43,021 nucleotides of DNA from Planctomycetota bacterium (lineage in GTDB: Bacteria; Planctomycetota; UBA8742; JACQVU01; JANLHZ01). The position numbers and the translations under genes were made by a program. Positions within the stretch are counted from its first letter, which is position 1; every line of letters starts with the position of its first letter. The notes below the pieces were generated by a model. The model was not told where the DNA came from, searched no databases, and saw only the letters and a program-made list of their open reading frames with translations. Where the stretch lies: assembly GCA_024653775.1 (NCBI GenBank), contig JANLHZ010000233.1, forward strand, positions 1 to 43,021. Direction: 5' to 3'. Positions 6,401 through 38,825 of the stretch are shown here, piece after piece.

Positions 6401-7344
6401 GGTCTGGCTGGACCACGGTAGCTTCCGGGACGGGGAGATCGCTATACAGTCTCCGCGGCGATTCGAAAAACAACCTTTTCGCGGTGGGAACCTACGGGAC
6501 GATCCTTCACTACGGGCCGTTCCTCGACGTGGGCACCAGCACGGACGGCGCGTTCGATTCCGCTACTTACACGTCCGGATCGATACCCGCGATTACAAAA
6601 AGCGGGACCACTATCACCATCAATACTTCGACGCAAAGCGAGTTCGATTTCACCTCGTTCACGCTCGCAGCCGGGGTCACGCTCGTCGCGACGGGTCCGA
6701 ACCCGATAAGGATTCACACCTCGGGGGACTGCACGATTGACGGCGTGATCGATCTATCGGGTGGAAACGCGAGCGGTAACAGCCGCGGCATCGGTTCCGT
6801 GGGCGGCTTTAACGGAGGCGAAGGCGGCGCGTCGCTTGGAGGTAACGGTACGAACGGCGGCGGTCCAGGCGCAGGGAATCGCGGATCCTCCGGAGGCGGA
6901 GGCGGCTTCGGAACCGCTGGAGGCGGGAACAATGGCGGTGGGACCTACAATAACGAATCTCTGACGAACACCGACATTCAGGGCGGCTCCGGAGGTGGCG
7001 GCGAAGACGGCGGAACCCTCAGCTCAGGCGGAGGCGGAGGCGCGGGCGGAGGCGCGATAAACATTCACTGCGCCGGGACTCTGACCATCGGTAGCGGTGG
7101 AAGCATAGACGTCAGCGGCGGAAACGGCTCGGGCGGCGGCGGAGGCGGCGCAGGTGGCGCGATCAAGTTACAGGCGAGCGCGATCGACATTCAAAGCACT
7201 TCGAGTTCCGCGCTCGACGCGACCGGCGGCTCCGGAGGCAACCCCGGTGGCGACGGACGCATCCGCCTGCACGACGACGACGGCGCAGTTACCGGATTCG
7301 ACACCAGATGCGCTCCCGACGCGAGCGTTTCGCGGAACTGGTGA
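439..7344 (+). CDS. Giant secreted repeat protein (Ig-like modules, beta-propeller repeats, Gly-rich tail)
   Basis: This is a 2301-residue exported protein, probably at the cell surface. The N-terminus is hydrophobic and ends FGAC at about residues 18-21, which could be a weak lipobox or an ordinary signal peptide. Residues about 45-1300 hold about ten modules of 110-130 residues, each with a [I/V]xYTLxDxE strand, an EYSxDGG turn and an FVW...RF/LRITPxD ending, a bacterial Ig/fibronectin-like pattern. Two shorter modules containing GGE-x5-GGS follow. Residues about 1480-2025 carry 13-14 copies of a 39-residue repeat (VYAVGxxGTILKxSG...W...SSGT). This is BNR/propeller-like, and fourteen copies would suit two seven-bladed propellers. 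Residues about 2030-2301 are extremely Gly-rich (GGSGGGG runs) around short beta segments. There is no sorting motif. The first propeller repeats (about 4920-5650) use more A/T-ending codons than the flanks. The C-terminal residues RNW and the stop codon are encoded inside a REP repeat. A role in adhesion or matrix is plausible; no enzyme motif is visible. Confidence 0.85.
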   Translation: MNIIVRLISFSIATFAFGACAYPLAYYAADQGIKNALDSGNSAPGGTVVLSAEATVTTTAASLTNSGATAINLRLIDGDSDVLKIVPEFCINGLAAQESRTWQLATLMDETDMMKPSSPTGIDYTLRWDTLSDLGLTFNPQVRFRVNIEGAEENYAPTGIFVVDNNAQPVATITSPSGAITGDVTIAYTLSDDESNPCSILAEFSTDGGLNYQRATPGAPNAEGVTGVNASQDGVAHTFVWNSGSVDDIGHTTQNVVFRITPDDTATDDSRVGIGASTEIFTVANNDPPVVTLEPLVETLSGDVTLTLYIMDTTESTASHTLTVEYSTNGGTTYQEASQRHGATSRLLYDAVSNEPGALAVFVWDSLQDLGQSYSADVKLRVFSNDGTDDGARVNFVREDDDALSTFIVDNNEAPAIVVELIGNDENFSPPTASGGSLGKTFSDDVIVRYRLIDSNQDPANLYFSYSLDGVNFSKCTESSSASSLGSESLLSLEGYGARGVYVWESHVDITSRSSSVALRVLPTDSVDGKDGKAITTSVFAIDNSSPPTASVGTPTSPTPGYYDVPVTIFDTESDSATLLVEFATPNDAAAGNWTACTQAEDSASAGSNVLDIGEAASTSPSGTTSTFRWFAAEATTGSGSYNIRVRPSDTRQGGYYTGPTITIDNSSLSQPNQPAFFFLDPLPDPISGNTQIAYSLGDQNSDAVSLAVEYSTSSGNWTSITFESGSDGSFGAALPTSGPAGALTSSPITSSSSGTNHTLVWASATDIPTVTGGVRLRFTTTDNDGSGTPFVTSPFQVGVNTKPSVAIDPFSAASDVVSVVYSIIDDEAQSIQIDPEYSVDGGANWSPASSAANQGDGIANLTSSSSPGTQHLFAWDSRADVGAGTFSNAKFRITPFDGIENGTAVSTNVFTLINNDAPQITNVAITGNSGDVSVTYTLADSTSDVSSIVIEYSSDGGTTWTAATRKSGAGEPTTGLTTSPSGVTHLFVWKTSVDLPGGPHTGIRGRITPSDASATGSPSVSSPFTIDNTTAPTATNVAPVSSTGGTTAPPVYTGDVTISFTIVDPESQSCTILAEYSADNGSTWHSASPGAGGDAGASYQSSPTGTAGSFVWNSTDIGTVLNTQVRFRVRPTDTKVGTAGVSATFTVDNNSLANTPPQISNLNPSGGSVKSGDITISFTLSDSEGQSCSILVEYFAPGPNGSVGIWYTIAASDISGDLSSLAPGSGLSFVWKSKTTLPSVDGSGYKLRLTPTDSAGATGATVASNAFAIDNAPPVVNITSLVGGEILAGGSTHTLTWTSQESNPNFVGVSYSTDDFATYTAIVNPTNDDGSYSFTLPSLDSSNVKIALAGTDGLGNTGSASITPAFTIDSTPPAVTLTYPVGGENMQGGSSQTIAWTTSDANVNAVYIDYTTNLSANPPTWTTIATSATDTGSYPWSPPITAAGTDTGIRIRATDQAGNVGSYAIIPAPFTISDRVRNRWMHQNPYPTGNDLLGVWGDTTGTVYAVGLNGVILKKSGSSWSSESSGTVNRLMDVGSDGAGTIYAVGDLGTILKKSGSSWISESSGTTQQFRGVRGSGTGTVYAVGNGGMILKKSGTAWSAESSGTTKDLWGVWDNGVGTVYAVGNNGTILKKSGGTWSIESSGTTQHFRDVWGDGSSVWAVGDSGTILRLSGGTWSSETSGTTQVLIGVWGDGTGTVYAVGYNGTILKNTGSSWSTESSGTSHVIEGVWGDSAGSVYAVGFSGTILKNTGGGWVSDAPSATSEHLYDFNLNLSNELRAVGDNGTTTQLIGPPWYPINSGTVEHFRGINNDSSGVMRAVGANGTIRVNSGGGWTTSETSGTTSNLEDIFEDSSGTLWIVGDGGTIKYYNGSAWTTSASGTTQHLYAIGEDSAGNLYAVGNSGTIRKKPVGGSWGTQSSGTTQNLHDVWGDSSGNVYVVGWGGTILRNSGGTWTAQTSGTTTHLYSICGDDSGTLFVCGDAGVVLKNTGSGWTTVASGTGRSLYSLRGDSKNNLFAVGTYGTILHYGPFLDVGTSTDGAFDSATYTSGSIPAITKSGTTITINTSTQSEFDFTSFTLAAGVTLVATGPNPIRIHTSGDCTIDGVIDLSGGNASGNSRGIGSVGGFNGGEGGASLGGNGTNGGGPGAGNRGSSGGGGGFGTAGGGNNGGGTYNNESLTNTDIQGGSGGGGEDGGTLSSGGGGGAGGGAINIHCAGTLTIGSGGSIDVSGGNGSGGGGGGAGGAIKLQASAIDIQSTSSSALDATGGSGGNPGGDGRIRLHDDDGAVTGFDTRCAPDASVSRNW

Positions 7345-9672: not shown

Positions 9673-11115
9673 ATGTTTGCAAGGTCGATTCTGATCGCTC
9701 TTTCCGTGATCGTGATCGCGTCTCACGGGAGCTTCGCCGATACCGTCATCTTAAGGAACCAGGAACGGATCAGGGGAGTAATCGAATCTGACGAGCCGTC
9801 CGGAGTCGTCATTCTCACCACCCGCGGGCAGCGGCGCGAAATCACCCGTAACGACATCCTTCGGGTAGAAAAGGACACACTTACCATCAATCAGGGACTT
9901 CGCGCGGTGTACGAACGGAATCACGCCAGCGATGACGCTGCGCAGAGCGCGGGCGCCGGAAGTTCCGGAAATGTCGCGCAGGACGTCGAACGCTACCTTC
10001 GCACGGACAACCCGAACGAAAGATCGACCCTCTCGCGCTCGATTCGCTCATCTGGGGCGGACGGAAGAACGATCGTTCGGGATAAGCTCGATAAAGCCTT
10101 CGCGGACCTGAACTCAGCGCTGCTGACGGGCGGTCTCTTCGAGCGCATTTTCCGGAGCGAAGTAGAGCAGGCCGCGGAGAAACGCCGGGAACTCGTCGGT
10201 CTGATCCGCGACGGCGTGCAGTATCCCGACGACAAACGCAGGCCGTATCCGGAGACGCAGCAGAAGATCGACGATCTGACCCGCGATCTCCGAAGCTGGC
10301 TGAATTCGCTCGACGCGGAGGCGTCGCTTTCGAATTCTTCGGAACTCGCGGAGGAGATGCGCGAGATTAGCCTGCTCGAAGCTCTCGTCGGCTCGGACCA
10401 GCAGGAGCGCGCGAGCTTTTTCTCCTCGCTTGGCAGGGAGATCAAACGCAAATTCCCGCACGTTCCCGCTGCGGACGAACTTCCCGCGTTTCCCCGCGAC
10501 TCGACCGCGACCGACGGCGAGAGGATCATCGTCAACCTTGTGAACGAGTACCGGATGATGCTCGGAATCCATCCTCTGATGCCGAATGAGCAGCTCACAC
10601 AGAGCGCCCGCGGTCACAGCGGAGATATGAGTCGGCTCGGGTTTTTCGATCACACGTCGCCCGTTCGCGGCAAGGAGTCGATGAGCGATCGCATAAGGCT
10701 CGCGGGGTACACATTCCGAACTATCGGCGAGAATATCGCGATGAATCCCCGCGGCCCGACTGCGGCGTTCGAGGCGTGGCTGCATTCGCCGCCGCACCAC
10801 AGGAACATCATTAATAGCGGCTTCCTCGACATCGGCGTGGGCGAAGCGGTTCCGTATTACACGCAGAACTTCGGCTCTACTCCGACGGGCGAGGTGAGCG
10901 AGGATTTCGATACTCAGGACGCCGCGTCAGCGCCGCGGGACGCGCAGGCCGGACAGAACGACGCGAACGGAAATCAGCAGCGCCAAAGCGAAGGCGCGGC
11001 GAACAGAGGAACCCTGCGCGACGTAGTCGACGACAACGAGAACGTTGAAGGCGAGAATCTTTCGAATTCCCGCCGGAGGAATCAGGACAATCGGAACGAA
11101 AACCGCGACAGGTAA
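9673..11115 (+). CDS. Exported CAP (SCP/PR-1-like) domain protein
   Basis: The 480-residue protein begins with a classical signal peptide ending SFADT near residue 23. Next comes a small beta-rich segment (TVILRNQERIRGVIES..., residues 23-70), of the kind seen before TPR or CAP regions in exported proteins. Residues about 80-280 are charged and helical. Residues about 285-410 form a CAP domain with NEYRMMLGIHPL, GHSGDMSRLGFFDH, GENIA and WLHSPPHHRNI, so the conserved His/Glu pairs of the family are present. The last about 70 residues are Asp/Asn/Gln/Arg-rich and probably disordered. Bacterial CAP proteins are extracytoplasmic, and their biochemical role is mostly unknown. GAGG before the ATG and the -10 box upstream support this start. 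No partner is evident nearby. Confidence 0.88.
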   Translation: MFARSILIALSVIVIASHGSFADTVILRNQERIRGVIESDEPSGVVILTTRGQRREITRNDILRVEKDTLTINQGLRAVYERNHASDDAAQSAGAGSSGNVAQDVERYLRTDNPNERSTLSRSIRSSGADGRTIVRDKLDKAFADLNSALLTGGLFERIFRSEVEQAAEKRRELVGLIRDGVQYPDDKRRPYPETQQKIDDLTRDLRSWLNSLDAEASLSNSSELAEEMREISLLEALVGSDQQERASFFSSLGREIKRKFPHVPAADELPAFPRDSTATDGERIIVNLVNEYRMMLGIHPLMPNEQLTQSARGHSGDMSRLGFFDHTSPVRGKESMSDRIRLAGYTFRTIGENIAMNPRGPTAAFEAWLHSPPHHRNIINSGFLDIGVGEAVPYYTQNFGSTPTGEVSEDFDTQDAASAPRDAQAGQNDANGNQQRQSEGAANRGTLRDVVDDNENVEGENLSNSRRRNQDNRNENRDR

Positions 11116-11158
11116 ATATCGTCGCGGTGTAAATTCGTCGCAAACAAGATGGTGATAA

Positions 11159-11416
11159 ATGACAAACAAGGCATCGAAAAAGAAAATAGAAAACGCAGAG
11201 AAGAACCTGCACGTCAAAGGCTTCACGCCTGCGCAGATTTACGAGCTTATGAAGGTTCTCGAGAACTACGCCGAACGGATCTTCGATCGGATCGATCAGC
11301 TTACGGACGAGGTCAAGAATCTGAAGGCCGCGCTCAAAGGGAAGTCCGGAAAGCCCGCGGCGAAAAAAAGCGCGGCCTCCAGAAAGGCCCCTAAAGGCCG
11401 GGCGAAGAAATCGTGA
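11159..11416 (+). CDS. Small coiled-coil protein with Lys/Ala-rich tail
   Basis: This 85-residue protein has no family I recognise. Residues about 8-57 form a charged amphipathic helix (FTPAQIYELMKVLENYAERIFDRIDQLTDEVKNL), probably a dimeric coiled coil. Residues about 58-85 are a basic Lys/Ala/Ser tail like that of histone-like or phasin-like proteins, which suggests binding to nucleic acid or another polyanion. Its stop codon overlaps the GTG start of the next gene (GTGA), so the two are very likely translated together. The ribosome site is weak (GGTGA before ATG). Confidence 0.65.
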   Translation: MTNKASKKKIENAEKNLHVKGFTPAQIYELMKVLENYAERIFDRIDQLTDEVKNLKAALKGKSGKPAAKKSAASRKAPKGRAKKS

Positions 11417-11967
11417 AGATTCGAATCGCTGTTCGGGACTATTTCTTCGCTGTTTTTATCGCGATCGTTCTATGCTGCGTTTTCGGGATGCTTCATAATC
11501 AGATGAGTTACAGCGTCTCCGCCGAGTATTTCACGAAGTTCAAGTTCATACAGTTCCGACTCGCAGATTCCGAAAGTTCGGAAAGATGGCGCGCCGCTAT
11601 CGTTGGATTACTCGCTTCGTGGTGGATGGGAATCCCTATCGGACTTGTCATGTCCTCAGCAGCGAGATCGCGCAGAGAACCTTCACGCACATTCGTTATC
11701 GCGGCGAAGATGATGATCGCCACCCTTGTCGTAACCGTTTGCTTCAGCCTTACTGGACTCTTGATCGGCTTTTTTGTCGCAGGTCCGGAACGCCCGGCGT
11801 GGTTTCATTTTGACGAAGTCGAAGACGCCCGGAGTTTCCTTCGCGCAGGATGGATGCACAACTTCTCCTACCTCGGCGGCGTCGTGATGATGATAGTCTG
11901 GGTGGTTTACGCAATCGTTTGGGGCCGAAGGAGTAAACGCGCAACGTCAGGAACGCATCTCGTGTGA
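11413..11967 (+). CDS. Conserved-type integral membrane protein
   Basis: This is a 184-residue protein with four predicted membrane segments (about residues 8-28, 60-82, 95-120 and 150-168). A soluble loop of about 30 residues after the first segment contains SAEYFTKFKFIQF, a phrase I have seen in uncharacterised membrane proteins of many bacteria. No catalytic motif is visible. It starts at GTG 11413, overlapping the previous gene by 4 bp. Its 3' end overlaps the convergent purL end by 21 bp, so there is no terminator between the two transcripts. The function is unknown. Confidence 0.75.
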   Translation: MKIRIAVRDYFFAVFIAIVLCCVFGMLHNQMSYSVSAEYFTKFKFIQFRLADSESSERWRAAIVGLLASWWMGIPIGLVMSSAARSRREPSRTFVIAAKMMIATLVVTVCFSLTGLLIGFFVAGPERPAWFHFDEVEDARSFLRAGWMHNFSYLGGVVMMIVWVVYAIVWGRRSKRATSGTHLV

Positions 11968-14943
11968 GAAGTCCAGCGGCGCGAGCCACACGGCCTTTAG
12001 TTCGTCCACTGATTCGCGGAGGATTTCTTTCCCTTCGCTTGTGATGACGAGCTTCCTGTCTTCGTAGACTTCCGCTACTTTCGCCGCTGGGAGATTTGAG
12101 AGCGCTTCAAGAAACGCGCTTTCATCTTCGGAGCGAACTTCAACGAGGAACCGACTGCACGATTCGCTGAATAGTTTTTCGAGGTCGGTCAGATCGCCTT
12201 CGCAGGGAACGTTATCGAGATTCAGTACGACTCCGCAGTCGCCGCCGAAACACATTTCGCTGACGGCCACCGCGAGTCCGCCTTCCGAGAGATCGTGGAC
12301 AGCGAGCACGCATTCGAGCTTCAGCGCCTCGTGAATTTTCGCAAAGTAGCTTGAATCCACTAATGACTCGGGAGCACGACTCGCCCCTCGCCGCTCGTCC
12401 CTCGATCCTTCATAGACGCTTCCCGCAAGCTCGTCCTTCGTCACGCCGAGAATGAAGACGCTTGAACCGACCTGTTTGAAATCGCTGGTGCGCGCTTTCC
12501 TTATGTCGGGCACGATTCCGAGCGCGCTTATGAGCAGCGTTCCTGGGATGGAGATCGTCTCGCCCTCTTCGGTCACGAATTCGTTGTTCAGCGAATCTTT
12601 GCCGCTGATGAACGGAAGCCCGAGCCTTACCGCCGCGTCGTGGCATCCTTTCGACGCCATCACGAGGTCGCCCAGCGCGTCCGGACGCTTCGAGCTACCC
12701 CAGCAGAAGTTGTCGAGGATCGCGACGCGCGACGGATCGGCGCCGAGCGCGACGACGTTCGAAAGCGCCTCGTCGATCGCCACCGTGGCCATCTTGTATG
12801 CGTCGAAATCCGTGATCGAAGGCCGCATCCCGCAGCCTATCGCGACGCCGCGGAAACTCCCCGTCTCTGGCCGCGGATACAGAACCGCCCCGTCCGTCGG
12901 CGAGTCGCGGTGAACGCCGGTAAACGGCTTGACGACGCTCATCCCCTGCACCTCGTGGTCGTACTGCCTGGTGATCCAGTGCTTCGACGCGACGCTCGGG
13001 TTCGAGAGGACCGCGCGGAGCACTTCGCTGGGACCGCGGACGTCGCCGTCCGCATGAGGGCGCACGCCGTGCGCCCCTACAACTTTGTCTGTTCCCTGCT
13101 CCCTGTCCCCCGCCCCCTTGCGAGTGACGGCGACGCGGTGACTCTTCGGAAGACCTTCGTGCAGGAACTCCATCGAAAGATCGCAGACCTTCGCGCCGCG
13201 GTAGCTTAGCGTCAGCCTTCCGTCGCCAGAGAATGTGCCGATGGCGCGCGCCTCGACGTCCTCCGCGGCGCAGATCGAAAGCACGCGCTCGACGTTCTCC
13301 GCCGGAACCGCGAGCACCATCCGCTCCTGGGCCTCGCTGAGCCAGATTTCGTTGTACAAAAGCCCCTCGTATTTTAGCGGCACCAGCGACAGTTCGACGT
13401 CGACGCCGAGTTCCGCGCCCATCTCGCCGCAGGCGCTCGAAAGCCCGCCCGCGCCGCAGTCCGTGACGGCGCTGTAGAGATTTTCATCCCGAAGCTGCAT
13501 CAGAACGTCGGTCACCTTTTTTTCCGTGATCGCGTTGCCGATCTGCACCGCGCCGCTGCTCGCGACCTCGCTTTCGGAGTCGAGTTCGATGCTCGAAAAC
13601 GTCGCGCCGCCTATGCCGTCGCGTCCCGTGCGTCCGCCGACGACTACAATAACGTCGTCCTTCCTCGCGGCTTTTTCGCTTTTTCCCTTGGGGATGAGAC
13701 CGACGACGCCGCAGAACACAAGCGGATTCCCCACGTACCGAGGGTCGAAAAACAGCGCACCGTTCACCGTCGGGATACCCATGCGGTTGCCGTAGTCGCG
13801 AACGCCGCGGACGACGCCGTCCATCAGAATGCGCGGATGGATCGTTCCCCGCGGTACTTCCGCGTCGCTCATCGAAGGCGAAGCGAAGCAGAAGACGTCG
13901 GTGTTCGCTATAGGGAACGCGCCGAGTCCGGTGCCGAGTATGTCGCGGATGCAGCCGCCGATGCCCGTGCCGGCGCCTCCGTATGGTTCGATCGCGGACG
14001 GGTGGTTGTGAGTCTCGACCTTGAAGCAGAGATCGAATTCGTCGTCGAATTCGACGATCCCCGCGTTGTCCTTGAAGACGCTGACGCACCAGCTCTTGTT
14101 CAAAGTCTCCGTTGCGCGTTTGATCGTCTCCTTGAAAAGGTTGTCGATCTTTTCCCTGCCGTCGACGATGTACGCGGAGTTGAACGTCTTGTGGACGCAG
14201 TGCTCGCTCCAGGTCTGCGCGATGGTCTCGAGTTCCACGTCCGTCGGCTCCTCTCCGGGGCGCGTTTCGCGGAAATGGCTCTGTATCGCGCGCATTTCGG
14301 CGAGATCGAGCGAAAGGCGGTGGTCCTTCGATATCCTGAGTAGTTCATCGTCGGACGCTTTCGACAGCCTGACGTGGTTCAACTTGAATTCAGCAGCGAG
14401 GGGCGAGAGGCGAGGGGCGAGCGTTACTTCCCCATCACTCCTGGAGATGGGCACACTTCCAAGGTGCAGACTTGAAATGCTTATATCCTCGATCACCTCG
14501 TTTGCGAGCAGTTTCGACGCGATGGTCCGCAGGTCCTCCTCGCGGACATCTCCGGCAAAAAGAACGTGGAACGACGTTGTCGCGCCCGTGAGGTCGATCC
14601 CGATGTTCGACGCGGCGCGGACGATGCTCTCCGCTACGGGATTCATCACGCCTTTCTTCTTCGAGATCGTGACGACGCTCGAAAACGATCCCCCCTCGCA
14701 ATAATCGAACGCGCCCGCGCTACGAACTTTGCAGTAAGATACGACGGAATCGACGACGACCTCGCTTGCGAAGCGTTCCGCGTCTTCCAGCGTAATGTCT
14801 CCCTCGACGCGGTAGGTATCGACGAACGCGACGGACTCGACGCTGTTCGCATCGATCTCGCGAATTCTTGCGATAAGACCCTTCGCCCGAGAATCGAAAT
14901 CCTGTGACTTCGGATACACGTCAACGTCAAAGAAGTTCGCCAT
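11947..14943 (-). CDS. purL: Phosphoribosylformylglycinamidine synthase, PurS-PurL fusion
   Basis: At 998 residues this is longer than the common small PurL (about 740) and shorter than the three-domain form (about 1290). Residues 1-220 contain PurS-like and linker segments. Residues about 220-980 are the duplicated synthetase, with VETHNHPSAIEPYGGAGTG (about 307-325), GGRTGRDGIGGATF, IRQYDHEVQG-like TRQYDHEVQGMSVVKP, and FISGKDSLNNEF. It catalyses ATP- and glutamine-dependent conversion of FGAR to FGAM in purine synthesis. The glutaminase (PurQ) must be separate and is not in this window. Three stretches at residues about 169-184, 603-634 and 843-862 are encoded by repeat-like DNA that reads in frame; they fall in linkers or loops rather than the core motifs. 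The gene is convergent with the membrane protein gene and overlaps it by 21 bp. Confidence 0.95.
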   Translation of the reverse strand: MANFFDVDVYPKSQDFDSRAKGLIARIREIDANSVESVAFVDTYRVEGDITLEDAERFASEVVVDSVVSYCKVRSAGAFDYCEGGSFSSVVTISKKKGVMNPVAESIVRAASNIGIDLTGATTSFHVLFAGDVREEDLRTIASKLLANEVIEDISISSLHLGSVPISRSDGEVTLAPRLSPLAAEFKLNHVRLSKASDDELLRISKDHRLSLDLAEMRAIQSHFRETRPGEEPTDVELETIAQTWSEHCVHKTFNSAYIVDGREKIDNLFKETIKRATETLNKSWCVSVFKDNAGIVEFDDEFDLCFKVETHNHPSAIEPYGGAGTGIGGCIRDILGTGLGAFPIANTDVFCFASPSMSDAEVPRGTIHPRILMDGVVRGVRDYGNRMGIPTVNGALFFDPRYVGNPLVFCGVVGLIPKGKSEKAARKDDVIVVVGGRTGRDGIGGATFSSIELDSESEVASSGAVQIGNAITEKKVTDVLMQLRDENLYSAVTDCGAGGLSSACGEMGAELGVDVELSLVPLKYEGLLYNEIWLSEAQERMVLAVPAENVERVLSICAAEDVEARAIGTFSGDGRLTLSYRGAKVCDLSMEFLHEGLPKSHRVAVTRKGAGDREQGTDKVVGAHGVRPHADGDVRGPSEVLRAVLSNPSVASKHWITRQYDHEVQGMSVVKPFTGVHRDSPTDGAVLYPRPETGSFRGVAIGCGMRPSITDFDAYKMATVAIDEALSNVVALGADPSRVAILDNFCWGSSKRPDALGDLVMASKGCHDAAVRLGLPFISGKDSLNNEFVTEEGETISIPGTLLISALGIVPDIRKARTSDFKQVGSSVFILGVTKDELAGSVYEGSRDERRGASRAPESLVDSSYFAKIHEALKLECVLAVHDLSEGGLAVAVSEMCFGGDCGVVLNLDNVPCEGDLTDLEKLFSESCSRFLVEVRSEDESAFLEALSNLPAAKVAEVYEDRKLVITSEGKEILRESVDELKAVWLAPLDFSHEMRS
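12380..12404 (-). repeat. Purine-rich GAGGG/CGAG microrepeat inside purL
   Basis: On the minus strand this reads CGAGGGACGAGCGGCGAGGG followed by GCGAG, encoding part of SRDERRGAS (residues about 847-855). The same motif recurs, on the opposite strand, at 14396-14421 in the same gene. It resembles intergenic low-complexity strings more than a conserved PurL segment. Confidence 0.6.
13058..13076. repeat. Palindrome within a repeat-like insertion in purL
   Basis: A perfect hairpin, GGGCGCAC-GCC-GTGCGCCC, lies in a longer non-coding-like stretch (about 13052-13128) that also holds a pyrimidine-rich microrepeat (TTCCCTGCTCCCTGTCCCC). It is translated as residues about 605-630 (GDREQGTDKVVGAHGVRPHA) in the linker between the two PurL halves. 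It looks like an intergenic palindromic repeat that inserted in frame. Confidence 0.65.
14396..14421 (+). repeat. Purine-rich GCGAGGGGCGAG microrepeat inside purL
   Basis: GCGAGGGGCGAG occurs twice, separated by two bases, and is translated on the minus strand as LAPRLSPLA (residues about 175-183). It is the inverted counterpart of 12380-12404. Its position is in the N-terminal linker after the PurS-like part, where an insertion could be tolerated. Confidence 0.6.
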
Positions 14944-15080: not shown

Positions 15081-18000
15081 ATGCCCAAAAATGGTCGACC
15101 AAGAAAAGGCGCTCCTCGAAAAACAAAATCCAGGAACGAAACCTCACCTCCGGCGGACAAGGTAGCGATAGTCGTCGCGGGAATGCATCGCAGCGGGACT
15201 TCCGCGCTTAGCCGGGTCGTCAGCCTGCTTGGGGCGGATCTGCCGAAGTTCGTAATGCCCGGCGACGCGAACAACGAAGCGGGCTACTGGGAATCCGTGG
15301 AGGTGAACCGTCTGAACGACGCTATACTCGAGTCCGCGGGCACGTTCTGGCACGATTTCCGCGAGTTCAACTCCGGCTGGTACGGAAGCTCCATCGCAAG
15401 GCAGTTCCGAAAGAAGGCGCTTGAAGCGCTCGATCGGGAATATTCGGACTCTAGTTTTTTTGTTCTGAAAGATCCAAGGTTCTGCCGAATCCTGCCTTTC
15501 TGGCTTGACGCGCTGAAGGAATTCGGCGCCGCGCCGCATCTGATCGTTTGCCTTCGAAATCCACTGGAAATCGCGGAGTCCATCAGAAAACGCGACGGCT
15601 TCGACACGCACCACGTTCTGCTGATATGGCTGCGACACCTGCTCGACATCGAATACGCTTCAAGAGGCATCCCACGGGCGTTCAGCCTCTATAGCAGTCT
15701 CCTCGAATCCTGGGAGGAAGCGACCAACGCCATCGCAAAGAAGCTCGGAATATCCTGGCCTGGGAAAAGCAGTTTCAAGAGCATCGAAATCGAGAAGTTT
15801 CTGTCTAAGGAGTACAAACACCACAATCAGAGCACAAACGGCGTCCTTCGCGGCGCAGGAGTGCACCACTGGGTTTCAACGGTCTTCGATTGTTTATCGC
15901 GCTTGTCGAACGGAACCGCGTTGGGCATACACACTTTCGAACTCGACACCGTCAGAAGGGAGTTTGCAGACGCGGAGTTGGCGTTTTCGAAGCCTCTTGC
16001 GGTAGGAGAGAGCCTAAGAACCGAGTATCTTAAAATCAAATCCGAACTTGCCGCGACCACAGCCAGGCTCAAGGAGTTCGAAACTTCGGTTGCTGAGAAA
16101 CTGAAGGACGCGGAAGAGCTAAGGCGCGACTGCGAAAACAAATCCGCGCGCGTTTCGGAACTCGAGCGCGTGATGGAAGAGAAGGTTGGCGAAATCAACC
16201 GTCTTTGGACGGAGATCGAGAAACGCGACGCCGAGGTAGTTCGCCTTCGAAGCGAGATCGACAGTCGACCGAAGGAAGATGAAGCGAAAAAGATAGACGC
16301 GCTTACGTCGGAACTCGACGTAAGCGAACGCCGGATTTCGGAGATGGAGACCGCGCTCAAGGCTGGAGCCGTCGAAATCGATCGCATAGCGGACGATTCG
16401 AACCGCGCGGCGGATGAAATTGAAAGGCTGCGGAACGAACTTGCGGAATCGAAATCGTTTGCAGAAAAAATATCCGCGCTGAAGATGGAGGCGGAGTTCA
16501 ACGCTGCCGCGGTCCAGGCGACACTCGACTCGAGCGTAGAGGATTACGAAAAGCTGCGCGCGAAGGTCGAGTCGGCGATTAATCGCGCGCGGAATTCCGA
16601 GTCGTCTCTGTTCGAACGCGACGACGAGCTTCGGAAAATCGGGCAGAAACTACACGACGCGGAATCGAAGGTGAGCGAGTTGTCGCAGATAGTCGAACGT
16701 ATTTCGGTGGAGTCTGAGAGAATCCGCGCGAGGACAGAGGCAAGCGACGCCCGGAAAAAAGGTATCGAACGCGCACTCTCGGACAAGCGAAAGGCGTTCG
16801 AAAGAATCGAGCGCGAGGCAGGGCTACTCGAAGCCAGACTTCTGGAATTAGAGAGCGAGTTTCGTAGCGAGATCGCCAGGCGCGACGCTCGAATCGATGA
16901 TCTCCAGCGCCGCGAAGGTGAGCTGCAGTCGGATCGAGACAGATTCAAAAAAGCGCTCGACGGAGTCCTCGGCAGCAAAAGCTGGAAATTCACCAGACCA
17001 CTCCGCAGGTTGATGGCGGTTGCTTCCGGAGAACCCGCGGAGCCTAAGACTAAGCTACCGTGGGACGGGGTTACGGAGGCTCCCGCGGAACTTCGTGCGG
17101 AACCGGCTCCGGTGGAAGCGCCCGCGCCGCAGATCGACGAGGATGCTCTGAGCGACATCCGATCGAGTCCGCTTTTCGACTCAGCGTATTATCTTTCACA
17201 GCTAGGCGAACACTCCGCGGAGGCCGTCGATCCGGCGGCGCACTATCTCTTGAACGGCGCTCGGAGTTGTCTCGATCCCCATCCGCTTTTCGACTCGTTC
17301 TACTACATCGAGAGAAACGACGACGTGCAGGCCGCGAGCCATAATCCGCTTTTGCACTACCTCCGTCACGGCGCGTCGGAGCTGCGAAACCCTCATCCGC
17401 TCTTTGACGCGAAATATTACGTCGCGCAGCTCGATAGCTTCGATCCCGAAAGTCTGAACCCGCTGGTCCATTACATCGAGGTCGGCGCGCGCGAACAGAG
17501 AAAGTCGCACCCGCTATTCGACACCGCGTTCTATCTGCAAAGCAATCCCGACGTCTTCGCGTCGGGGGATAATCCGCTCAGGCATTTCGTCGTAATGGGC
17601 GTGTTTGAAGACCGTGATCCGAATCCGCTGTTTTCGACCCGGTACTATCTTGGTCAGTACCCCGATGTTTCGGAGCGGGGATCGAATCCGCTAGTGCATT
17701 ACTCGGAAACCGGATGGATGGAGGATAGAGATCCGTGCCCGCTGTTCAACACCCGGTACTACGTCGAGCACAATCAGGACGTCGACTTCAGCGCAATGAA
17801 TCCGCTCGCGCACTACTTCGAAATCGGCTCGATTTCAGGGAAGGATCCCTGCGCGCTGTTCGACTCCTCGTTCTACCTGAGCGAAAACCCGGACGTTGCG
17901 AAATCCGGTACGAACCCGCTACAACATTACATCGAAGCCGGTGCGTACGAGGGCCGAAATCCCCACCCGATGTTCGAGTCCGCGTACTACCTGAAATGGA

Positions 18001-20204
18001 ATCCGGACGTTGCGGGCGAGCGGAAGAACCCGCTCCAGCACTTCATCGAAGCCGGCGCGTACGAAGGACGAAGACCGAATCCGCTGTTCTACCCGGATTT
18101 CTATCTGGAGCAGAACCCGGACGTCGCGGAGCGCGGAATGAATCCTCTCCAGCACTATGCCGAATCGGGGGAGAAAGAAAACCGCCAGCCCTGCCCGGAC
18201 CACGTCCTCGGAGACCGCGACTGGCTCGTCTATCCGAAACTGAAGGCGGACATCGAAAACGTCCGCAGAAAGCGTATAGACTCGTTCGAACCGACTCCGC
18301 CGCAACTTTTAAGCTTCAGGGACCGCGATCTTTCGGAGGTGGCGCGCAGTCTGCATTTCGACGAGGTCGTAAATCCGAAGGTTTCGATCGTGATGCCGCT
18401 GTACAGCCGCGGGGAAGATCAGATAAGACTGACGCTCGAATGCCTTTACACTCTCGATCGAGGGACGCAGGGCATTCCGTACGAAGTCGTCATAGGTGAC
18501 GACGGCTCATGCGAGAAAACGAAGGAAATAATATCCGAGGTTTTCGGGATCAACTTTTACGCTAGCGATAAAAACCTCGGATTCCTGCGTGCCGTGAACC
18601 GCGCGGCGAACTTCGCGAAAGGCGAGTTCATAGTCCTTCTGAACAACGACGTCCAGCTTATGCCTGGATGGCTCGAACCGCTGCTGGATACTTTCGAAAA
18701 AATCGAAAACGTTGGAGCGGTCGGACCGAAGATGCTTTTCCCGAACGGTCGCCTTCAGGAGGCGGGCTGTAGAATCGAGACGGACTTCTGCACGAAAATG
18801 ATCGGCGTTTTCGACGATCCGGACGCTCCTTGCTACAACTACATCCGCGAAGTCGACTACGTTTCCGGCGCGGTCCTCGCGTTCAAGAGGTCCGACTGGC
18901 TCGAAATAGGCGGTTTTGACGACAACCTCGCTCCAGCGTTCTACGAAGACGTGGACCTTTGTCTCGCGCTGAAAGCCCGCGGGAAGAAGATCATCTACAA
19001 CCCGAAGTCCGTCATCGTTCATCACCTGAGCGTCACTTGGGAATCCATCGGACAATCGAAAAAGATGGATATGATCGTCACGAACCGCCAGAAGATGGCC
19101 GAAAAGTGGCAGGAGGATGTGGATAAAAATAATGACGTAAAAGTCATCGCGCTTTACTTCCCGCAGTTCCATCCGAACGCCGAGAACGATTACTGGTGGG
19201 GGAAGGGATTTACAGAGTGGACCAACGTCACGAAGGCTAAACCGAACTTCGAGGGGCACCTTCAGCCGAGGTATCCTGGCGACCTCGGCTTCTGCGATAT
19301 CCGTCTCGAGGAAACCATGGACGAGCAATTCGCACTCGCGAAAAGATACGGAATTCACGGCTTCTGCTATTTTTATTATTGGTTCGACGGAACGAGACTG
19401 CTCCATCGCGCGGTTGAGCGGATGCTCCAGCGGGAAAAGGTTTTGCCTTTCTGCCTTTCATGGGCAAACGAGAACTGGACCCGTCGCTGGGACGGCGAGC
19501 ACAAAGGCGTAATGATCGAACAGAAACATTCGGACGACGACGACCGCAAAGTGATAAGAGATATGATCCGCTATATGCGTCATCCGGAATATATAAAAGT
19601 GAACGGCAAGCCTCTGCTTTTCGTGTATCGCATCAATTTGTTTCCAGACATCCGCCGCACCGTAAACATCTGGCGCGAAACTTGCCATAACGAGGGCATA
19701 GGAGACATCTACCTCGGTTTTGTTGAAAGTTTCGAACACGCGCTGCTGGGCGAGGACCCGAAGATTTACGGATTCGACGCTTCGATGGAATACCCGCCAC
19801 ACCACGCGATGGTTCCTATCGACGTAAGCGAGAAGATCGTCAATCCGGAATTCAAGGGGATCGTGGGGGATTATCCTTCCGTGGTCCTGAAATACGCAGG
19901 CAAACCGTTAACCGGATTCACCCGGTTCCGAGGGACGATGACCGCCTGGGATAACACCGCTCGCAGACAGAACGACAGCGTGATCTATCATAATTGTTCC
20001 CCGGGAGCCTACCAGGCATGGCTCGAAATGGCTCTGAATGACACGCTCGATCAGAACTACGGCGACGAAAGATTGGTTTTCGTGAACGCGTGGAACGAGT
20101 GGGCGGAGGGAACTTATCTCGAGCCTGACAGCATTTGGGGTCACGGCTTTTTGCATTCGACGAAAAGCGCCATAGATCGGGTAAAATTCAACCGCGGAAT
20201 TTAA
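15081..20204 (+). CDS. Multidomain glycan-modifying protein: sulfotransferase, coiled coil, repeats, GT2, WbsX-like
   Basis: This 1707-residue protein joins several activities. Residues about 27-230 form a sulfotransferase domain with the PAPS-binding loop GMHRSGTSALSR (34-45), then LKDPRFCR and CLRNPLEIAESI. Residues about 310-620 are a long Glu/Arg/Lys coiled coil. Residues about 694-1040 hold nine tandem 37-38-residue repeats (PLFD..YYL..NPDV....NPL.HY...G..EGR.P), known from large glycosyltransferases. Residues about 1100-1330 are a family 2 glycosyltransferase (VSIVMPLYSRGED, GDDGS, LLNNDVQ, GAVGPKML, YEDVDLC). Residues about 1353-1700 are a WbsX/GH99-like domain (IALYFPQFHPNAEND, GFTEWTN, FCLSWANENWTRRW, NAWNEWAEGTYLEP). 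It probably builds and sulfates a surface polysaccharide. The GT4 gene follows with no gap. The start ATG has only a weak ribosome site. Confidence 0.9.
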   Translation: MPKNGRPRKGAPRKTKSRNETSPPADKVAIVVAGMHRSGTSALSRVVSLLGADLPKFVMPGDANNEAGYWESVEVNRLNDAILESAGTFWHDFREFNSGWYGSSIARQFRKKALEALDREYSDSSFFVLKDPRFCRILPFWLDALKEFGAAPHLIVCLRNPLEIAESIRKRDGFDTHHVLLIWLRHLLDIEYASRGIPRAFSLYSSLLESWEEATNAIAKKLGISWPGKSSFKSIEIEKFLSKEYKHHNQSTNGVLRGAGVHHWVSTVFDCLSRLSNGTALGIHTFELDTVRREFADAELAFSKPLAVGESLRTEYLKIKSELAATTARLKEFETSVAEKLKDAEELRRDCENKSARVSELERVMEEKVGEINRLWTEIEKRDAEVVRLRSEIDSRPKEDEAKKIDALTSELDVSERRISEMETALKAGAVEIDRIADDSNRAADEIERLRNELAESKSFAEKISALKMEAEFNAAAVQATLDSSVEDYEKLRAKVESAINRARNSESSLFERDDELRKIGQKLHDAESKVSELSQIVERISVESERIRARTEASDARKKGIERALSDKRKAFERIEREAGLLEARLLELESEFRSEIARRDARIDDLQRREGELQSDRDRFKKALDGVLGSKSWKFTRPLRRLMAVASGEPAEPKTKLPWDGVTEAPAELRAEPAPVEAPAPQIDEDALSDIRSSPLFDSAYYLSQLGEHSAEAVDPAAHYLLNGARSCLDPHPLFDSFYYIERNDDVQAASHNPLLHYLRHGASELRNPHPLFDAKYYVAQLDSFDPESLNPLVHYIEVGAREQRKSHPLFDTAFYLQSNPDVFASGDNPLRHFVVMGVFEDRDPNPLFSTRYYLGQYPDVSERGSNPLVHYSETGWMEDRDPCPLFNTRYYVEHNQDVDFSAMNPLAHYFEIGSISGKDPCALFDSSFYLSENPDVAKSGTNPLQHYIEAGAYEGRNPHPMFESAYYLKWNPDVAGERKNPLQHFIEAGAYEGRRPNPLFYPDFYLEQNPDVAERGMNPLQHYAESGEKENRQPCPDHVLGDRDWLVYPKLKADIENVRRKRIDSFEPTPPQLLSFRDRDLSEVARSLHFDEVVNPKVSIVMPLYSRGEDQIRLTLECLYTLDRGTQGIPYEVVIGDDGSCEKTKEIISEVFGINFYASDKNLGFLRAVNRAANFAKGEFIVLLNNDVQLMPGWLEPLLDTFEKIENVGAVGPKMLFPNGRLQEAGCRIETDFCTKMIGVFDDPDAPCYNYIREVDYVSGAVLAFKRSDWLEIGGFDDNLAPAFYEDVDLCLALKARGKKIIYNPKSVIVHHLSVTWESIGQSKKMDMIVTNRQKMAEKWQEDVDKNNDVKVIALYFPQFHPNAENDYWWGKGFTEWTNVTKAKPNFEGHLQPRYPGDLGFCDIRLEETMDEQFALAKRYGIHGFCYFYYWFDGTRLLHRAVERMLQREKVLPFCLSWANENWTRRWDGEHKGVMIEQKHSDDDDRKVIRDMIRYMRHPEYIKVNGKPLLFVYRINLFPDIRRTVNIWRETCHNEGIGDIYLGFVESFEHALLGEDPKIYGFDASMEYPPHHAMVPIDVSEKIVNPEFKGIVGDYPSVVLKYAGKPLTGFTRFRGTMTAWDNTARRQNDSVIYHNCSPGAYQAWLEMALNDTLDQNYGDERLVFVNAWNEWAEGTYLEPDSIWGHGFLHSTKSAIDRVKFNRGI

Positions 20205-21356
20205 ATGGGCAAATTCGAGAAAGACGTGGTTCTGGTCGGCCATCCCTTTATTTCAACCGGGATGGGGGAACATCTTCGTGTCTTCTATCGTTCGATGAAG
20301 GCCGCGTGGATGAAAGTAGGCGTGCTGAATATTTTCGATCACTATCGAGGGACTGACGATAAGCTATATCTCGAATTCCACGACGACCTTGTGGGAGACC
20401 TTCACGACAACGTGAACGTGTTCTTCATCAACGGCGACGAGATCGAACCCCATTTTGCTCACCGTAAGTTCACCCCGCCTACGGGAGCGCACAATATCAT
20501 TGCGCCGGCGTGGGAGCTTTCTAACTATCCGGCCGTGTGGGCGAGACAACTCGAAGCCTTCGACGAAGTCTGGGCATTGTCGACCTTCACCGCGGACTCC
20601 ATAAGAAAAGCCGTTTCTATTCCGGTCAAGGCGATTCCGGACGCGGTCGAACCTAAAATATCGAACTATGTCAGCAGGAGATATTTCGGGATTCAGGAGA
20701 GCAGTTTCGTTTTCATGTTCAGCTTCGATTTCACGTCGTACATAGAGAGAAAGAACCCGTACGCGGTGCTCGACGCGTTCAAGATCGCGGCGCGTGAGCT
20801 TGGATTTGCGGACATACGACTTGTTATCAAGCTGAACGGCACCGCCCAACGTCCCGATGATTTCATTAGGTTCACCGACGCGATAAGCGAATACAAAGAA
20901 CGTGTAACAATCATCGACAAGGTGCTGTCCGCGAATGAGATGAAAAATCTCATAAGAGTCTGCGACTGCTATGTTTCGCTTCACAGGAGCGAAGGCTTCG
21001 GATTCGGCATGGCGGAGGCGATGTATTTTGGAAAACCTGTCATCGGAACGGGTTATTCAGGCAATCTCGATTTCATGAACGATGAAAACTCGCTTCTCGT
21101 TCCATACAAACTTGTTGACGTTCCAGATGGCGCGTACCCGTATTCTGCCAACCAGCAGTGGGCCGAACCAGATGTCCACGCCGCGGCGGAATATATGATC
21201 TCGCTCGCAACGGAACCGTCACTCGTCCGCGAAGTTGGTGAACGGGCCAGCAGATTCATGCGCGTACACTTCAGTTACCGCACGAAAGGGATCGAATGCC
21301 GCGACGCGTTTTCGGAGGTCGGTCGGCTACCCAAATCCGTCACGTCAATGAAGTGA
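20205..21356 (+). CDS. Glycosyltransferase family 4/1-type
   Basis: A 383-residue GT-B glycosyltransferase. The C-terminal donor-binding half (about 170-360) carries HRSEGFGFGMAEAMYFGKPV, giving the E-x7-E motif (Glu263 and Glu271), followed by GTGYSGNLDFM. The N-terminal half contains AWELSNYPAVWARQLEAFDEVW and STFTADSIRKA, typical of enzymes that act after WbsX-like or GT2 proteins. The ATG follows the TAA of the 1707-residue gene with no intervening base, so it is cotranscribed and probably acts on the same surface glycan. It ends 6 bp from the convergent methyltransferase gene. Donor and acceptor are unknown. Confidence 0.92.
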   Translation: MGKFEKDVVLVGHPFISTGMGEHLRVFYRSMKAAWMKVGVLNIFDHYRGTDDKLYLEFHDDLVGDLHDNVNVFFINGDEIEPHFAHRKFTPPTGAHNIIAPAWELSNYPAVWARQLEAFDEVWALSTFTADSIRKAVSIPVKAIPDAVEPKISNYVSRRYFGIQESSFVFMFSFDFTSYIERKNPYAVLDAFKIAARELGFADIRLVIKLNGTAQRPDDFIRFTDAISEYKERVTIIDKVLSANEMKNLIRVCDCYVSLHRSEGFGFGMAEAMYFGKPVIGTGYSGNLDFMNDENSLLVPYKLVDVPDGAYPYSANQQWAEPDVHAAAEYMISLATEPSLVREVGERASRFMRVHFSYRTKGIECRDAFSEVGRLPKSVTSMK

Positions 21357-22309: not shown

Positions 22310-23545
22310 ATGGTAAAATTATACTTCATCCATATTCCGAAAACCGCCGGTAACAGCACGATTTCAGAGATGCAGCGGAGTTTCGGAGCGGGACAATACA
22401 AAAGATTCGATCCTTGGGTCGGAAGCGAATCCAGAGCTTTGATGGCTGCGACGATCGATAACTATGGCTTCGTTTCAAGCCACGCTCCATTTGCCGAAGT
22501 CCACGATCTAGTCAAAGACAGGACTGTTTTTACGTTTCTAAGACATCCGGTGGACAGAGTCACATCTCTATACAATTTTTATCGCTCATTTGTCACAGAT
22601 ACCACCGTCGATGATATCCTTGTCAAGCACAAGCTCGCCAGGACGCTCTCGCTGAAGGATTTCGCGCGGTGCACACATCCCGCAATAGCTTTTGAGCCGA
22701 ACAACGGAATGTCGCGGGTGCTTTGCAGAAAGCAACGTTACGGGAAGAATCTTTCGATTTCCGACCTATCCGAGGAAGCGATGTCGGTGATCGAGACGAT
22801 CGAGTTCGGTCTGCTGGAGCGCTTCCGCGATTCGCTTGGCTACCTGGAACAACAGCTCGGGCTTTACCCGTCATTCTCCGATCCTTGGGAAAACAAGACG
22901 GTGGTTTCCGGAAACACCTCTACAACCGTTAATGAAGCGACTGACGCTATTATTGAGAGTAATGAAGCGGACCTGAGACTATACAATCATGCGAAAAAAC
23001 TCTTCATAAAACGCTTGTCGATTTCATTGGTAGACCGATTTATTCGCAGGCGGGGCATCTCATCGTTGCCTGCGTTTGCGAAGACCGGTTCGAGTATCGC
23101 AAAATACTCCTGGTCGGTTTCAGACAAGACTCTTGCGGAAAATCTATATTTCTTGGAAAAACTGGGCCAGGATGGATCGGAGTACAGGTTTACCGGACCG
23201 GGAACGAGAGCCACGCTTTATTTCAAGTTCCCGGAGGATATTAAGTGCGCCGGTCTAAGAGTTTACGTTCTTCCATTCATTGATGGAGATTTTCGCTCAA
23301 GCAGGATTTTCATCGCTGATCGCGAAAAAGCCACAAAGTTCATCGAAGATGAATTGACCAGGGAGATTTTTTTTGAAGTATCGGTTACGCAAGAGGACAT
23401 AAGACAAGACGGCCTGCTGGAAGTATGCCTCGATACCGTCTTCGTTTTGAAACCGCGGTACATCGATTCCGCTTCTCTCGATGACCGTAGCCTGGGAGTT
23501 GCGATAACGCGAGTAGAACTTGTCGAGCTAGTAGCAGATTCATGA
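22310..23545 (+). CDS. Sulfotransferase family 2-like protein with extra C-terminal domain
   Basis: The 411-residue protein starts with the 5'-phosphosulfate loop FIHIPKTAGNS (residues 6-16). It has the 3'-phosphate motif FLRHPVDRVTSLYNFY (76-91), both diagnostic of PAPS-dependent carbohydrate sulfotransferases. The fold ends near residue 240. Residues about 250-411 form a beta-rich extension (RFTGPGTRATLYFKFPEDIKC...) that I do not recognise; it may bind glycan. Codon use is more A/T-rich than in the neighbouring 1707-residue gene, which suggests separate acquisition. The stop overlaps the next ATG (ATGA), so the two genes are coupled. The role is likely sulfation of a surface glycan. Confidence 0.88.
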   Translation: MVKLYFIHIPKTAGNSTISEMQRSFGAGQYKRFDPWVGSESRALMAATIDNYGFVSSHAPFAEVHDLVKDRTVFTFLRHPVDRVTSLYNFYRSFVTDTTVDDILVKHKLARTLSLKDFARCTHPAIAFEPNNGMSRVLCRKQRYGKNLSISDLSEEAMSVIETIEFGLLERFRDSLGYLEQQLGLYPSFSDPWENKTVVSGNTSTTVNEATDAIIESNEADLRLYNHAKKLFIKRLSISLVDRFIRRRGISSLPAFAKTGSSIAKYSWSVSDKTLAENLYFLEKLGQDGSEYRFTGPGTRATLYFKFPEDIKCAGLRVYVLPFIDGDFRSSRIFIADREKATKFIEDELTREIFFEVSVTQEDIRQDGLLEVCLDTVFVLKPRYIDSASLDDRSLGVAITRVELVELVADS

Positions 23546-24249
23546 GTCGCATTCTTCTTTTATCAAAGTGTTCGAAGAGCAAACTTGATACGATGCCGAC
23601 CGCGATTTCACTAGGGCAGCTTGTCGAGCATTCCAAAGAACTTTGCGGAATCCCTAAAGTATTCAATCTCAGAACAACCACAGCCGCGACGCTTTACACG
23701 GGCAGGAATCACAACCTGATTCGCCTTGCGGTCGAAACCGCGAGAACCTCCGGGAACGAAAGCGATCTGAAAATCATCAGCGCGGGATTCGGCGTAGTGG
23801 ATGAGAACGACAAACTCCCGAATTACGACGCGACGTTCAGCGATATGAAATCGAAAAAGTTTCGCCGGGAGTGGGCGGACAAGCTCGGGATTCCGGGGGA
23901 CGTGCGCGCGCTGCTTACCGCAGACTACGACGTCGGGATTGTGCAGATCTCCGAGCGCTATATCGAGGCCTGTAATTTCGCACACGACTTCAATCCAGCG
24001 TTTCCGACCCTTTTCTTCGTGGCCGGACGCAGTAAACGGTTCGTGCCGGAATCGCCAAACGCGCACGTAATCGAACTCCGGCAGAGCGACACGAAAATCT
24101 TTCGCGAAGCCGCGGTGAATCTCGGCGGAAAGGTCGTGCTGGAGCTTGCGAAGGAAGTCGCAAAGGGAGAAGAAACTCGCGAAACGTTTTCTAAAGATCC
24201 CGCGGGATTCGCGCGAAGCTTCATCGAGCGCAAACGCGAAGGTTTGTAG
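23542..24249 (+). CDS. YaaA/DUF6884-like protein of unknown function
   Basis: This is a 235-residue protein. The N-terminal pattern is ILLLSKCSKSK, then LYTGRNHNLIRLAVETAR, then LKIISAGFGVVDENDKLPNYDATF. It follows the order of motifs (SC.KRK, LYTG, ILSA..GL, Y) in DUF6884/YaaA-type proteins linked to nucleotide or deazaguanine chemistry and DNA damage. Here the usual K/HG after ISA is replaced by FG. I assign only family resemblance. The ATG overlaps the sulfotransferase stop by 4 bp. The stop codon lies in the first unit of a triple terminator-like repeat. A link to glycan synthesis is not obvious. Confidence 0.6.
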   Translation: MSRILLLSKCSKSKLDTMPTAISLGQLVEHSKELCGIPKVFNLRTTTAATLYTGRNHNLIRLAVETARTSGNESDLKIISAGFGVVDENDKLPNYDATFSDMKSKKFRREWADKLGIPGDVRALLTADYDVGIVQISERYIEACNFAHDFNPAFPTLFFVAGRSKRFVPESPNAHVIELRQSDTKIFREAAVNLGGKVVLELAKEVAKGEETRETFSKDPAGFARSFIERKREGL

Positions 24250-38214: not shown

Positions 38215-38825
38215 GTGCCGTGATTTACATAGAAGGCGGCGGCGATGGCAAAGACGGTCAGGTTTCCTGCCGCGCAGGTTTCAGGAGTCTTCTCGAAAAT
38301 TCAGGATTCGTAGGGAAAATGCCAAGGCTTTTTGCATCCGGAAAACGCAAGTCTGCCTATGATGACTTTCGGCATGAGCATGAAGCCAATCAATCTGATT
38401 ACGTCGCGTTACTCGTCGACAGCGAGGATCCAGTAATAGATATCGAGAAGCCCTGGGATCATCTAAAGAACCGGAAAGACGATAAATGGGAAAAACCTCA
38501 AAACGCGACGGACGATCAGGTTTTCTTGATGGCTACGTGTATGGAAACCTGGATTGCCAGTGACCGCGATACACTAAAAAAGCACTATAAAAAAGGATTC
38601 AAGGAAAACGCGCTTCCTTCTCTTAACGACATCGAAAAGAAAAATCACCACGACGTGCAAAAAAGTCTGGCAAAGGCGACGAAGGATTGTTGGAACGCTT
38701 ATCGAAAAGGAGAACGTTCGTTCGAAATCCTTGGGAAGCTGAATCCCGCGGCGCTTGAAACACAGCTTAGCGCGTTCCGCAGAATGAAGCGGATTCTGCT
38801 CGAAAAGCTTGCCGTCGAAACTTGA
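38211..38825 (+). CDS. DUF4276 family protein (TOPRIM-like), partner of AAA ATPase
   Basis: A 204-residue protein with the DUF4276 pattern: VIYIEGGGDGKDGQVSCRAGFRSLL at the N-terminus, LLVDSEDPV in the middle, then NATDDQVFLMATCMETWIASDR. The acidic EGGG and VDSED motifs have the layout of a TOPRIM-type metal site, so nuclease activity is possible, though I have only sequence resemblance. The start is TTG 38211, overlapping the ATPase stop (TTGA), with GGAGG nine bases before it. An alternative GTG at 38220 is too far from that site. The stop is 3 bp from the convergent anti-sigma gene. With the ATPase it forms a candidate defence module. Confidence 0.87.
   Translation: MSAVIYIEGGGDGKDGQVSCRAGFRSLLENSGFVGKMPRLFASGKRKSAYDDFRHEHEANQSDYVALLVDSEDPVIDIEKPWDHLKNRKDDKWEKPQNATDDQVFLMATCMETWIASDRDTLKKHYKKGFKENALPSLNDIEKKNHHDVQKSLAKATKDCWNAYRKGERSFEILGKLNPAALETQLSAFRRMKRILLEKLAVET

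Follow-up and report, generated by a model that had tools for sequence, protein, structure and literature searches.

In the Klebsiella O4 and O7 proteins described by Kelly and co-workers, a coiled-coil ruler bears a terminator at its far end, and the O7 protein, ORF6, combines a methyltransferase/kinase, a coiled coil, and two GT2 glycosyltransferase modules on one chain (PMC11231755). Coiled-coil rulers are described in WbdD and WbbB as well as in ORF6, and this terminator-ruler strategy is termed widespread in ABC transporter-dependent assembly (PMC11231755). The terminators named are methyl, methylphosphate, and Kdo groups; in the portion of the article available, a sulfate terminator is not mentioned (0 occurrences of "sulfo"). 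For the group 3 capsule clusters of Escherichia coli, the available part of PMC13171606 reports coiled-coil "putative methyltransferase" genes, and that of PMC10433991 lists modification genes including a methyltransferase and a sulfotransferase, the word "coiled" being absent from it. Here, we analyzed a 43,021-nucleotide stretch of DNA from a Planctomycetota bacterium (the window), which encodes a 1707-residue protein with a sulfotransferase-like domain at one end of a long coiled coil and glycan enzymes at the other.

Domain layout of the 1707-residue protein

The 1707-residue ORF is real and carries all five modules given in Table 1. Pfam matches, the AlphaFold fold, the heptad signal, and the repeat periodicity bear out both the list and the order of domains that an earlier sequence-only reading had assigned to this chain.

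Table 1. Features of the 1707-residue protein and adjoining genes (window positions).
Feature	Position	Strand	Basis or remark
Whole ORF	15081..20204	+	1707 aa, ATG start
N-terminal sulfotransferase domain (predicted), aa 21-292	15141..15956	+	local profile, AlphaFold model and PDB matches, sub-threshold Sulfotransfer_3
GMHRSGTSAL, aa 34-43, 5'-phosphosulfate-loop-like motif	15180..15209	+	sequence
RNPLEIAES, aa 159-167, 3'-phosphate-binding-like motif	15555..15581	+	alignment, 62 rows
Coiled coil, aa about 311-635	16011..16985	+	heptad periodicity; weak SMC and crescentin rod matches
SKSWKFTRPLR motif, aa 632-642, coil end	16974..17006	+	pattern match
Nine 38-residue repeats (REP), aa 697-1038	17169..18194	+	repeat periodicity, local profile
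GT2 domain, aa 1099-1317; DDGS, NND, and YEDVD motifs present	18375..19031	+	Pfam, profile
WbsX/GH99-like domain, aa 1353-1698; Glu pair E1673/E1676	19137..20174	+	Pfam, profile
GT4 glycosyltransferase, next gene	20205..21356	+	starts on the base right after the stop of the 1707-aa ORF
Second sulfotransferase gene nearby	22310..23545	+	Sulfotransfer_2, 23.5 bits (cut-off 22)

The N-terminal domain had been expected to match sulfotransferase profiles, and by sequence it falls short of the Pfam cut-off: Sulfotransfer_3 (PF13469) matched residues 30 to 226 with an E-value of 0.0028 and 18.4 bits, below the gathering score of 27 bits that the relatives L051 (30.9 bits) and L063 (28.4 bits) pass. 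Sequence-only searches of solved structures returned one chance-level row for the single sequence and a best E-value of 0.068 for a nine-row profile. Where such matching gave nothing convincing, structure search settled the fold. The AlphaFold model (pLDDT 91.2, from a 62-row alignment) had human TPST2 (3ap1_B) as its best solved-fold match in VIA-align (Z 15.4, 3.8 Å, 209 residues) and the CurM sulfotransferase (4gbm) as its top Foldseek match (E 7.8e-6); its structural neighbors were, in order, tyrosylprotein sulfotransferases, then closely those of bacterial polyketide pathways, and then mycobacterial and heparan sulfotransferases. As modeled, the domain belongs to the sulfotransferase fold superfamily, and we do not claim it for Pfam Sulfotransfer_3: it resembles Sulfotransfer_3 and the tyrosylprotein sulfotransferases in its fold and its PAPS-loop-like motifs but differs from the former in scoring below the cut-off.

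The alignment holds 61 of the 81 domain references plus the window sequence, with cut, short, and near-duplicate references dropped by eye. R159, S167, E71, and W90 are invariant in it (62/62 rows), and residues 34 to 43 look invariant partly because the scan pattern itself selected that motif. We take GMHRSGTSAL to be like the 5'-phosphosulfate loop; R159 and S167 would presumably hold the 3'-phosphate of PAPS, and E71 is a candidate catalytic base. PAPS can be made in the source genome, since an APS kinase is encoded there (E 5.5e-66), and this kinase may simply serve sulfate assimilation. In a tree of the domain (65 rows), the window protein fell in no supported group, and we therefore make no claim on lateral transfer or on the origin of the fusion.

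Over residues 311 to 640, the heptad-period power was 1.18 compared with 0.19 ± 0.07 in shuffles, and not one of 1000 shuffles reached it, which upholds the long coiled coil proposed from sequence; in four other regions tested, the signal was weak or none and was reached by 41 to 479 of 1000 shuffles. The coil weakly matches SMC and crescentin rods. Its terminal motif recurs, in that an SKSWKFTRPLR-type pattern was matched in 31 of the 89 ORFs examined in loci among the matches listed, and in these 31 the coil measured from domain end to motif spans 40 to 692 residues.

The repeat array was apparent by periodicity, with a self-identity of 46% at offset 38 and a maximum of 13% in 500 shuffles (offsets 20-59). 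The earlier count of nine tandem repeats was right, and the length of 37 to 38 residues can be sharpened, as all nine are exactly 38. Profile searches showed this repeat family to be absent from Pfam and NCBIfam. The model of the nine-copy array (pLDDT 90.3) shows, per copy, short helices with small bridges. Against the PDB, a single-sequence search gave no rows, the best Foldseek match reached only E 3.8, and VIA-align placed 0 of 20 chains at Z 2 or more, which means that Foldseek's candidates mismatch and does not itself make the fold novel. Among predicted viral structures (BFVD), one match lay under E 0.001, a glycosyltransferase of the giant virus Fadolivirus (E 2.2e-6); a predicted Hyperionvirus glycosyltransferase also resembles the repeat fold (E 1.7e-3). 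We consider the repeat the least understood part of the finding and also a concrete target: it is common in glycan-assembly proteins, in neither family database, confidently predicted, and without a solved counterpart found by Foldseek.

A plasmid search with the repeats gave 117 records. Six of the matches (H80, H81, H83, H84, H93, and H95) carry annotations of secreted-type proteins (M10 metallopeptidase C-terminal, calcium-binding, Hint, Ig-like, or hemolysin-type) and not of glycan enzymes, and plasmid annotations also put the 38-residue repeat in RTX-like proteins.

Beyond the repeats, GT2 (PF00535) matched residues 1102 to 1218 with an E-value of 8.5e-21 and 75 bits, above the gathering score of 23.3 bits, and the domain matches a solved chondroitin synthase (E 5.9e-16). 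WbsX (PF14307) matched residues 1355 to 1693 (E 3.3e-120, 402.1 bits, gathering score 25.1 bits). A single-sequence WbsX search of the PDB gave no rows; a 14-domain profile matched solved GH99 enzymes (5ngw, E 1.2e-6; 4acy, E 6.3e-4), and the NEWxEG Glu pair (E1673/E1676), which we equate with the GH99 catalytic pair, is kept in 13 of 14 WbsX rows. Because of this profile match and the kept Glu pair, both shared with the GH99 endo-alpha-mannosidases/mannanases, we regard WbsX as a GH99 relative, hydrolase or transferase, although it forms a separate Pfam family. We know of no activity for the WbsX family. In the literature available, "WbsX" mostly denotes an unrelated filarial antigen.

Elsewhere in the window, two adjacent genes (37000-38825, + strand) match both parts of the PADLOC candidate defense system HEC-01 (HEC-01A, E 1e-139; HEC-01B, E 7.8e-69; Pfam AAA_21 and DUF4276). 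A 2301-residue ORF (439-7344, +) has weak or tiny Pfam matches (Reelin subrepeat, BNR, Ig-like) and no NCBIfam match, a 998-residue FGAM synthase-like protein (11947-14943, −) has a PurS-like stretch in the same chain, and a DUF6884 protein (23542-24249, +) is encoded directly behind the Sulfotransfer_2 gene.

Fused and split forms among relatives

A scan of public genomes gave at least 589 pattern matches, of which at least 563 were confirmed as relatives of the N-terminal domain, and 79 loci were kept; in a survey of the same phylum, 29 of 392 genomes, the source genome included, held a relative at E 1e-8 or better. The 79 loci, which are among the matches listed and to which the counts in this section apply, hold 81 ORFs with the domain, 71 complete and 10 cut by the locus end. 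Among the complete ORFs, 40 have the domain without repeats, a glycan enzyme, or any other searched module, so the sulfotransferase domain also works in other settings. Repeats accompany the domain in 17, repeats and glycan enzymes in six, and glycan enzymes without repeats in eight, which places glycan enzymes on the same chain in 14 of 71.

The sequence-only reading knew no other case of this exact domain order. The layout recurs: in many relatives, these modules occur on one chain or in adjoining genes. The exact module set of the window protein, with no additions, was found in none of the 71 complete ORFs. The only case among them with the same order is L063, a 1743-residue protein from a Thiocapsa MAG (sulfotransferase-coil-REP3-GT2-GT4-WbsX), which has three repeats instead of nine and carries inside the chain the GT4 that in the window is the next gene. 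Pfam found this GT4 and our local GT4 profile missed it, so the module lists of other ORFs may likewise omit GT4. L087, from an Acidobacteriota MAG, is 32.6% identical over query residues 15 to 1347 and collinear through GT2, after which the contig end cuts it. In L091 (Thiospirillum jenense), 23 repeats are followed by WbsX and then GT2. The architecture is thus recurrent, and our literature search found no paper that characterizes a sulfotransferase version; a 2020 review of O-antigen chain-length control may mention sulfotransferases.

In the 17 ORFs with domain plus repeats, the C-terminal repeat usually lies at the very end of the chain (11 residues or fewer from it in 14 of 17), and in eight of the 17 the next gene starts with a repeat. 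Genes starting with a repeat follow sulfotransferase ORFs in 13 of 36 cases versus 14 of 230 after the remaining ORFs in these loci (Fisher p 3.3e-6; ORFs of at least 200 aa, overlapping ones dropped, 697 kept), a linkage within loci that were picked for the sulfotransferase and not a genome-wide one. By these counts, the window protein unites on one chain what is often encoded by a pair of genes, with the junction often inside the repeat array, and such a junction fits either docking through the repeats or frequent breakage and joining there.

A methyltransferase occurs on the same chassis. In L146 to L148, on plasmids of E. coli and Enterobacter, MTase-coil-REP2 and then REP1-GT2-GT2 come directly after genes for an ABC permease, an ABC ATPase, and a polysaccharide (sugar) transporter. 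In Azospirillum (L145), MTase-coil-REP9-GT2 comes after a Wzt with Wzt_C (E 3.3e-35) and before a GT and a permease gene. We infer that the MTase-coil genes of L146 to L148 are those meant in the available text of PMC13171606.

Proposed role of the sulfotransferase and alternatives

The modifying enzyme of the window protein lies across a long coil from the GT2, and the next gene encodes a GT4; for both glycosyltransferases a polymerizing role is putative. By analogy with the methyltransferase chassis and with the published terminator-ruler layout, we tentatively read the protein as a one-chain, terminator-ruler-polymerase-like glycan-assembly protein with the sulfotransferase in the terminator position, a reading that may well be correct but that we stop short of calling probable. 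At the C-terminal end, near the membrane, the GT2, with the GT4 and perhaps WbsX, would lengthen a chain linked to the membrane. The rigid coil, which would reach about 48 nm were it continuous (325 residues × 0.1485 nm rise), would keep the sulfotransferase off the growing end and so set a minimum chain length; sulfate from PAPS would go only to chains long enough to reach the sulfotransferase, capping them and setting their length. The repeats would link the coil with the polymerase modules, serving in the window protein as a fused scaffold and in the split forms perhaps as a docking surface. A coil that gauges chain length, as the sequence-only reading suggested, has a close precedent in WbdD, WbbB, and O7 ORF6, as described in the available part of PMC11231755; for the window protein, we infer length control, as we do capping, docking, the substrate, and the export route.

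Export is the weakest point of the terminator reading, because no Wzt C-terminal domain was detected in the source genome (completeness 96%) and no polysaccharide exporter was found among the window genes scanned. KpsT-type exporters do without Wzt_C. The source genome has four ABC2_membrane hits, one beside an ABC ATPase and none tied to a glycan locus, and three Poly_export hits. One of the latter lies on contig C108, where the APS kinase gene is located about 13 kb away. The ten proteins scanned there, from genes outside the 6.6-11.9 kb interval, do not make up a clear polysaccharide cluster: they are for betaine transport, methyltransferases, a deacetylase, a formyltransferase, a pterin-binding enzyme, and an HlyD protein. 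On the small contig C119 (L154), about 5 kb separates a Sulfotransfer_3 gene (4435-5322) from an ABC-2 permease-ATPase pair (10051-11771); the eight proteins scanned on it include a sugar kinase and a dynamin-like protein. In the examined flanks of the 79 loci (among the matches listed), a regular expression found a Wzt-like ATPase in 13 and none in 66.

It is quite possible that the protein is instead a synthase tethered to a sulfotransferase, which would sulfate residues all along the chain, the coil and repeats only tethering or oligomerizing the enzymes. This simpler version follows the earlier reading of a single enzyme that both lengthens a glycan and sulfates it. All the catalytic parts for this are present, a second sulfotransferase gene lies nearby, and sulfotransferase and GT modules are recurrently fused or adjacent; capping the chain and sulfating it along its length would call for one and the same set of parts. 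The layout, however, fits the published terminator-ruler proteins, a methyltransferase fills the same slot in transporter loci, and it is not obvious why decorating a nascent chain should take a rigid spacer of 325 residues. Of the two readings, we consider end-capping the more likely.

We judge it unlikely that the coil and repeats form a membrane or envelope scaffold and that the target of the sulfotransferase is a protein or lipid partner instead of the glycan that the GT2 makes. Among solved folds, a tyrosylprotein sulfotransferase is indeed the closest (Z 15.4), and the repeats also match RTX-like and M10-peptidase C-terminal proteins, by annotation only; a shared fold shows no substrate, however, and the neighborhood and partners are glycan enzymes. 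A slightly less likely course is that WbsX, as a hydrolase or transglycosylase of the GH99 kind, trims or transfers the glycan; the protein would then combine building, cutting, and sulfation, with length set by cutting and not by the coil. The profile match to solved GH99 (5ngw, 4acy) and the Glu pair in 13 of 14 rows favor cutting, but Pfam names the PF14307 family a glycosyltransferase and most sulfotransferase relatives (in loci among the matches listed) are without WbsX. That a misassembly joined unrelated genes into this ORF is very improbable even for a fragmented assembly of 331 contigs, as L087 is collinear over query residues 15 to 1347, which argues against a chimera, and L063 has the same module order.

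Beyond the window protein with its sulfotransferase in the terminator position, a wider proposal is, we believe, rather unlikely to hold in full: that sulfate is an unrecognized terminator of surface polysaccharides, that widespread coiled-coil sulfotransferases cap glycans of set length, and that the 38-residue repeat couples ruler to polymerase by docking or joining. If true, sulfate would extend the methyl, methylphosphate, and Kdo set of terminators by a charged cap and would account for a large group of proteins, with at least 563 relatives, whose annotation now goes no further than "sulfotransferase family protein" or "glycosyltransferase."

Comparison with known terminator-ruler systems

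From the available description (PMC11231755), Klebsiella pneumoniae O7 ORF6 is like the window protein in having an N-terminal modifying enzyme, a long coil, and a C-terminal GT2 module on one chain. The window protein differs in having a sulfotransferase instead of the methyltransferase-kinase, in adding nine 38-residue repeats and a WbsX/GH99-like domain, and in having no exporter seen beside it. In WbdD-WbdA of E. coli O9a and WbbB of Klebsiella O12, a coiled-coil ruler keeps the terminator off the polymerase, as the layout of the window protein would; their terminators are methyl/phosphomethyl or Kdo, and the available part of PMC11231755 describes no sulfotransferase there. The capsule-type loci L146 to L148 share the coil-repeat-GT chassis of the window protein, but there it carries a methyltransferase and is split into two genes.
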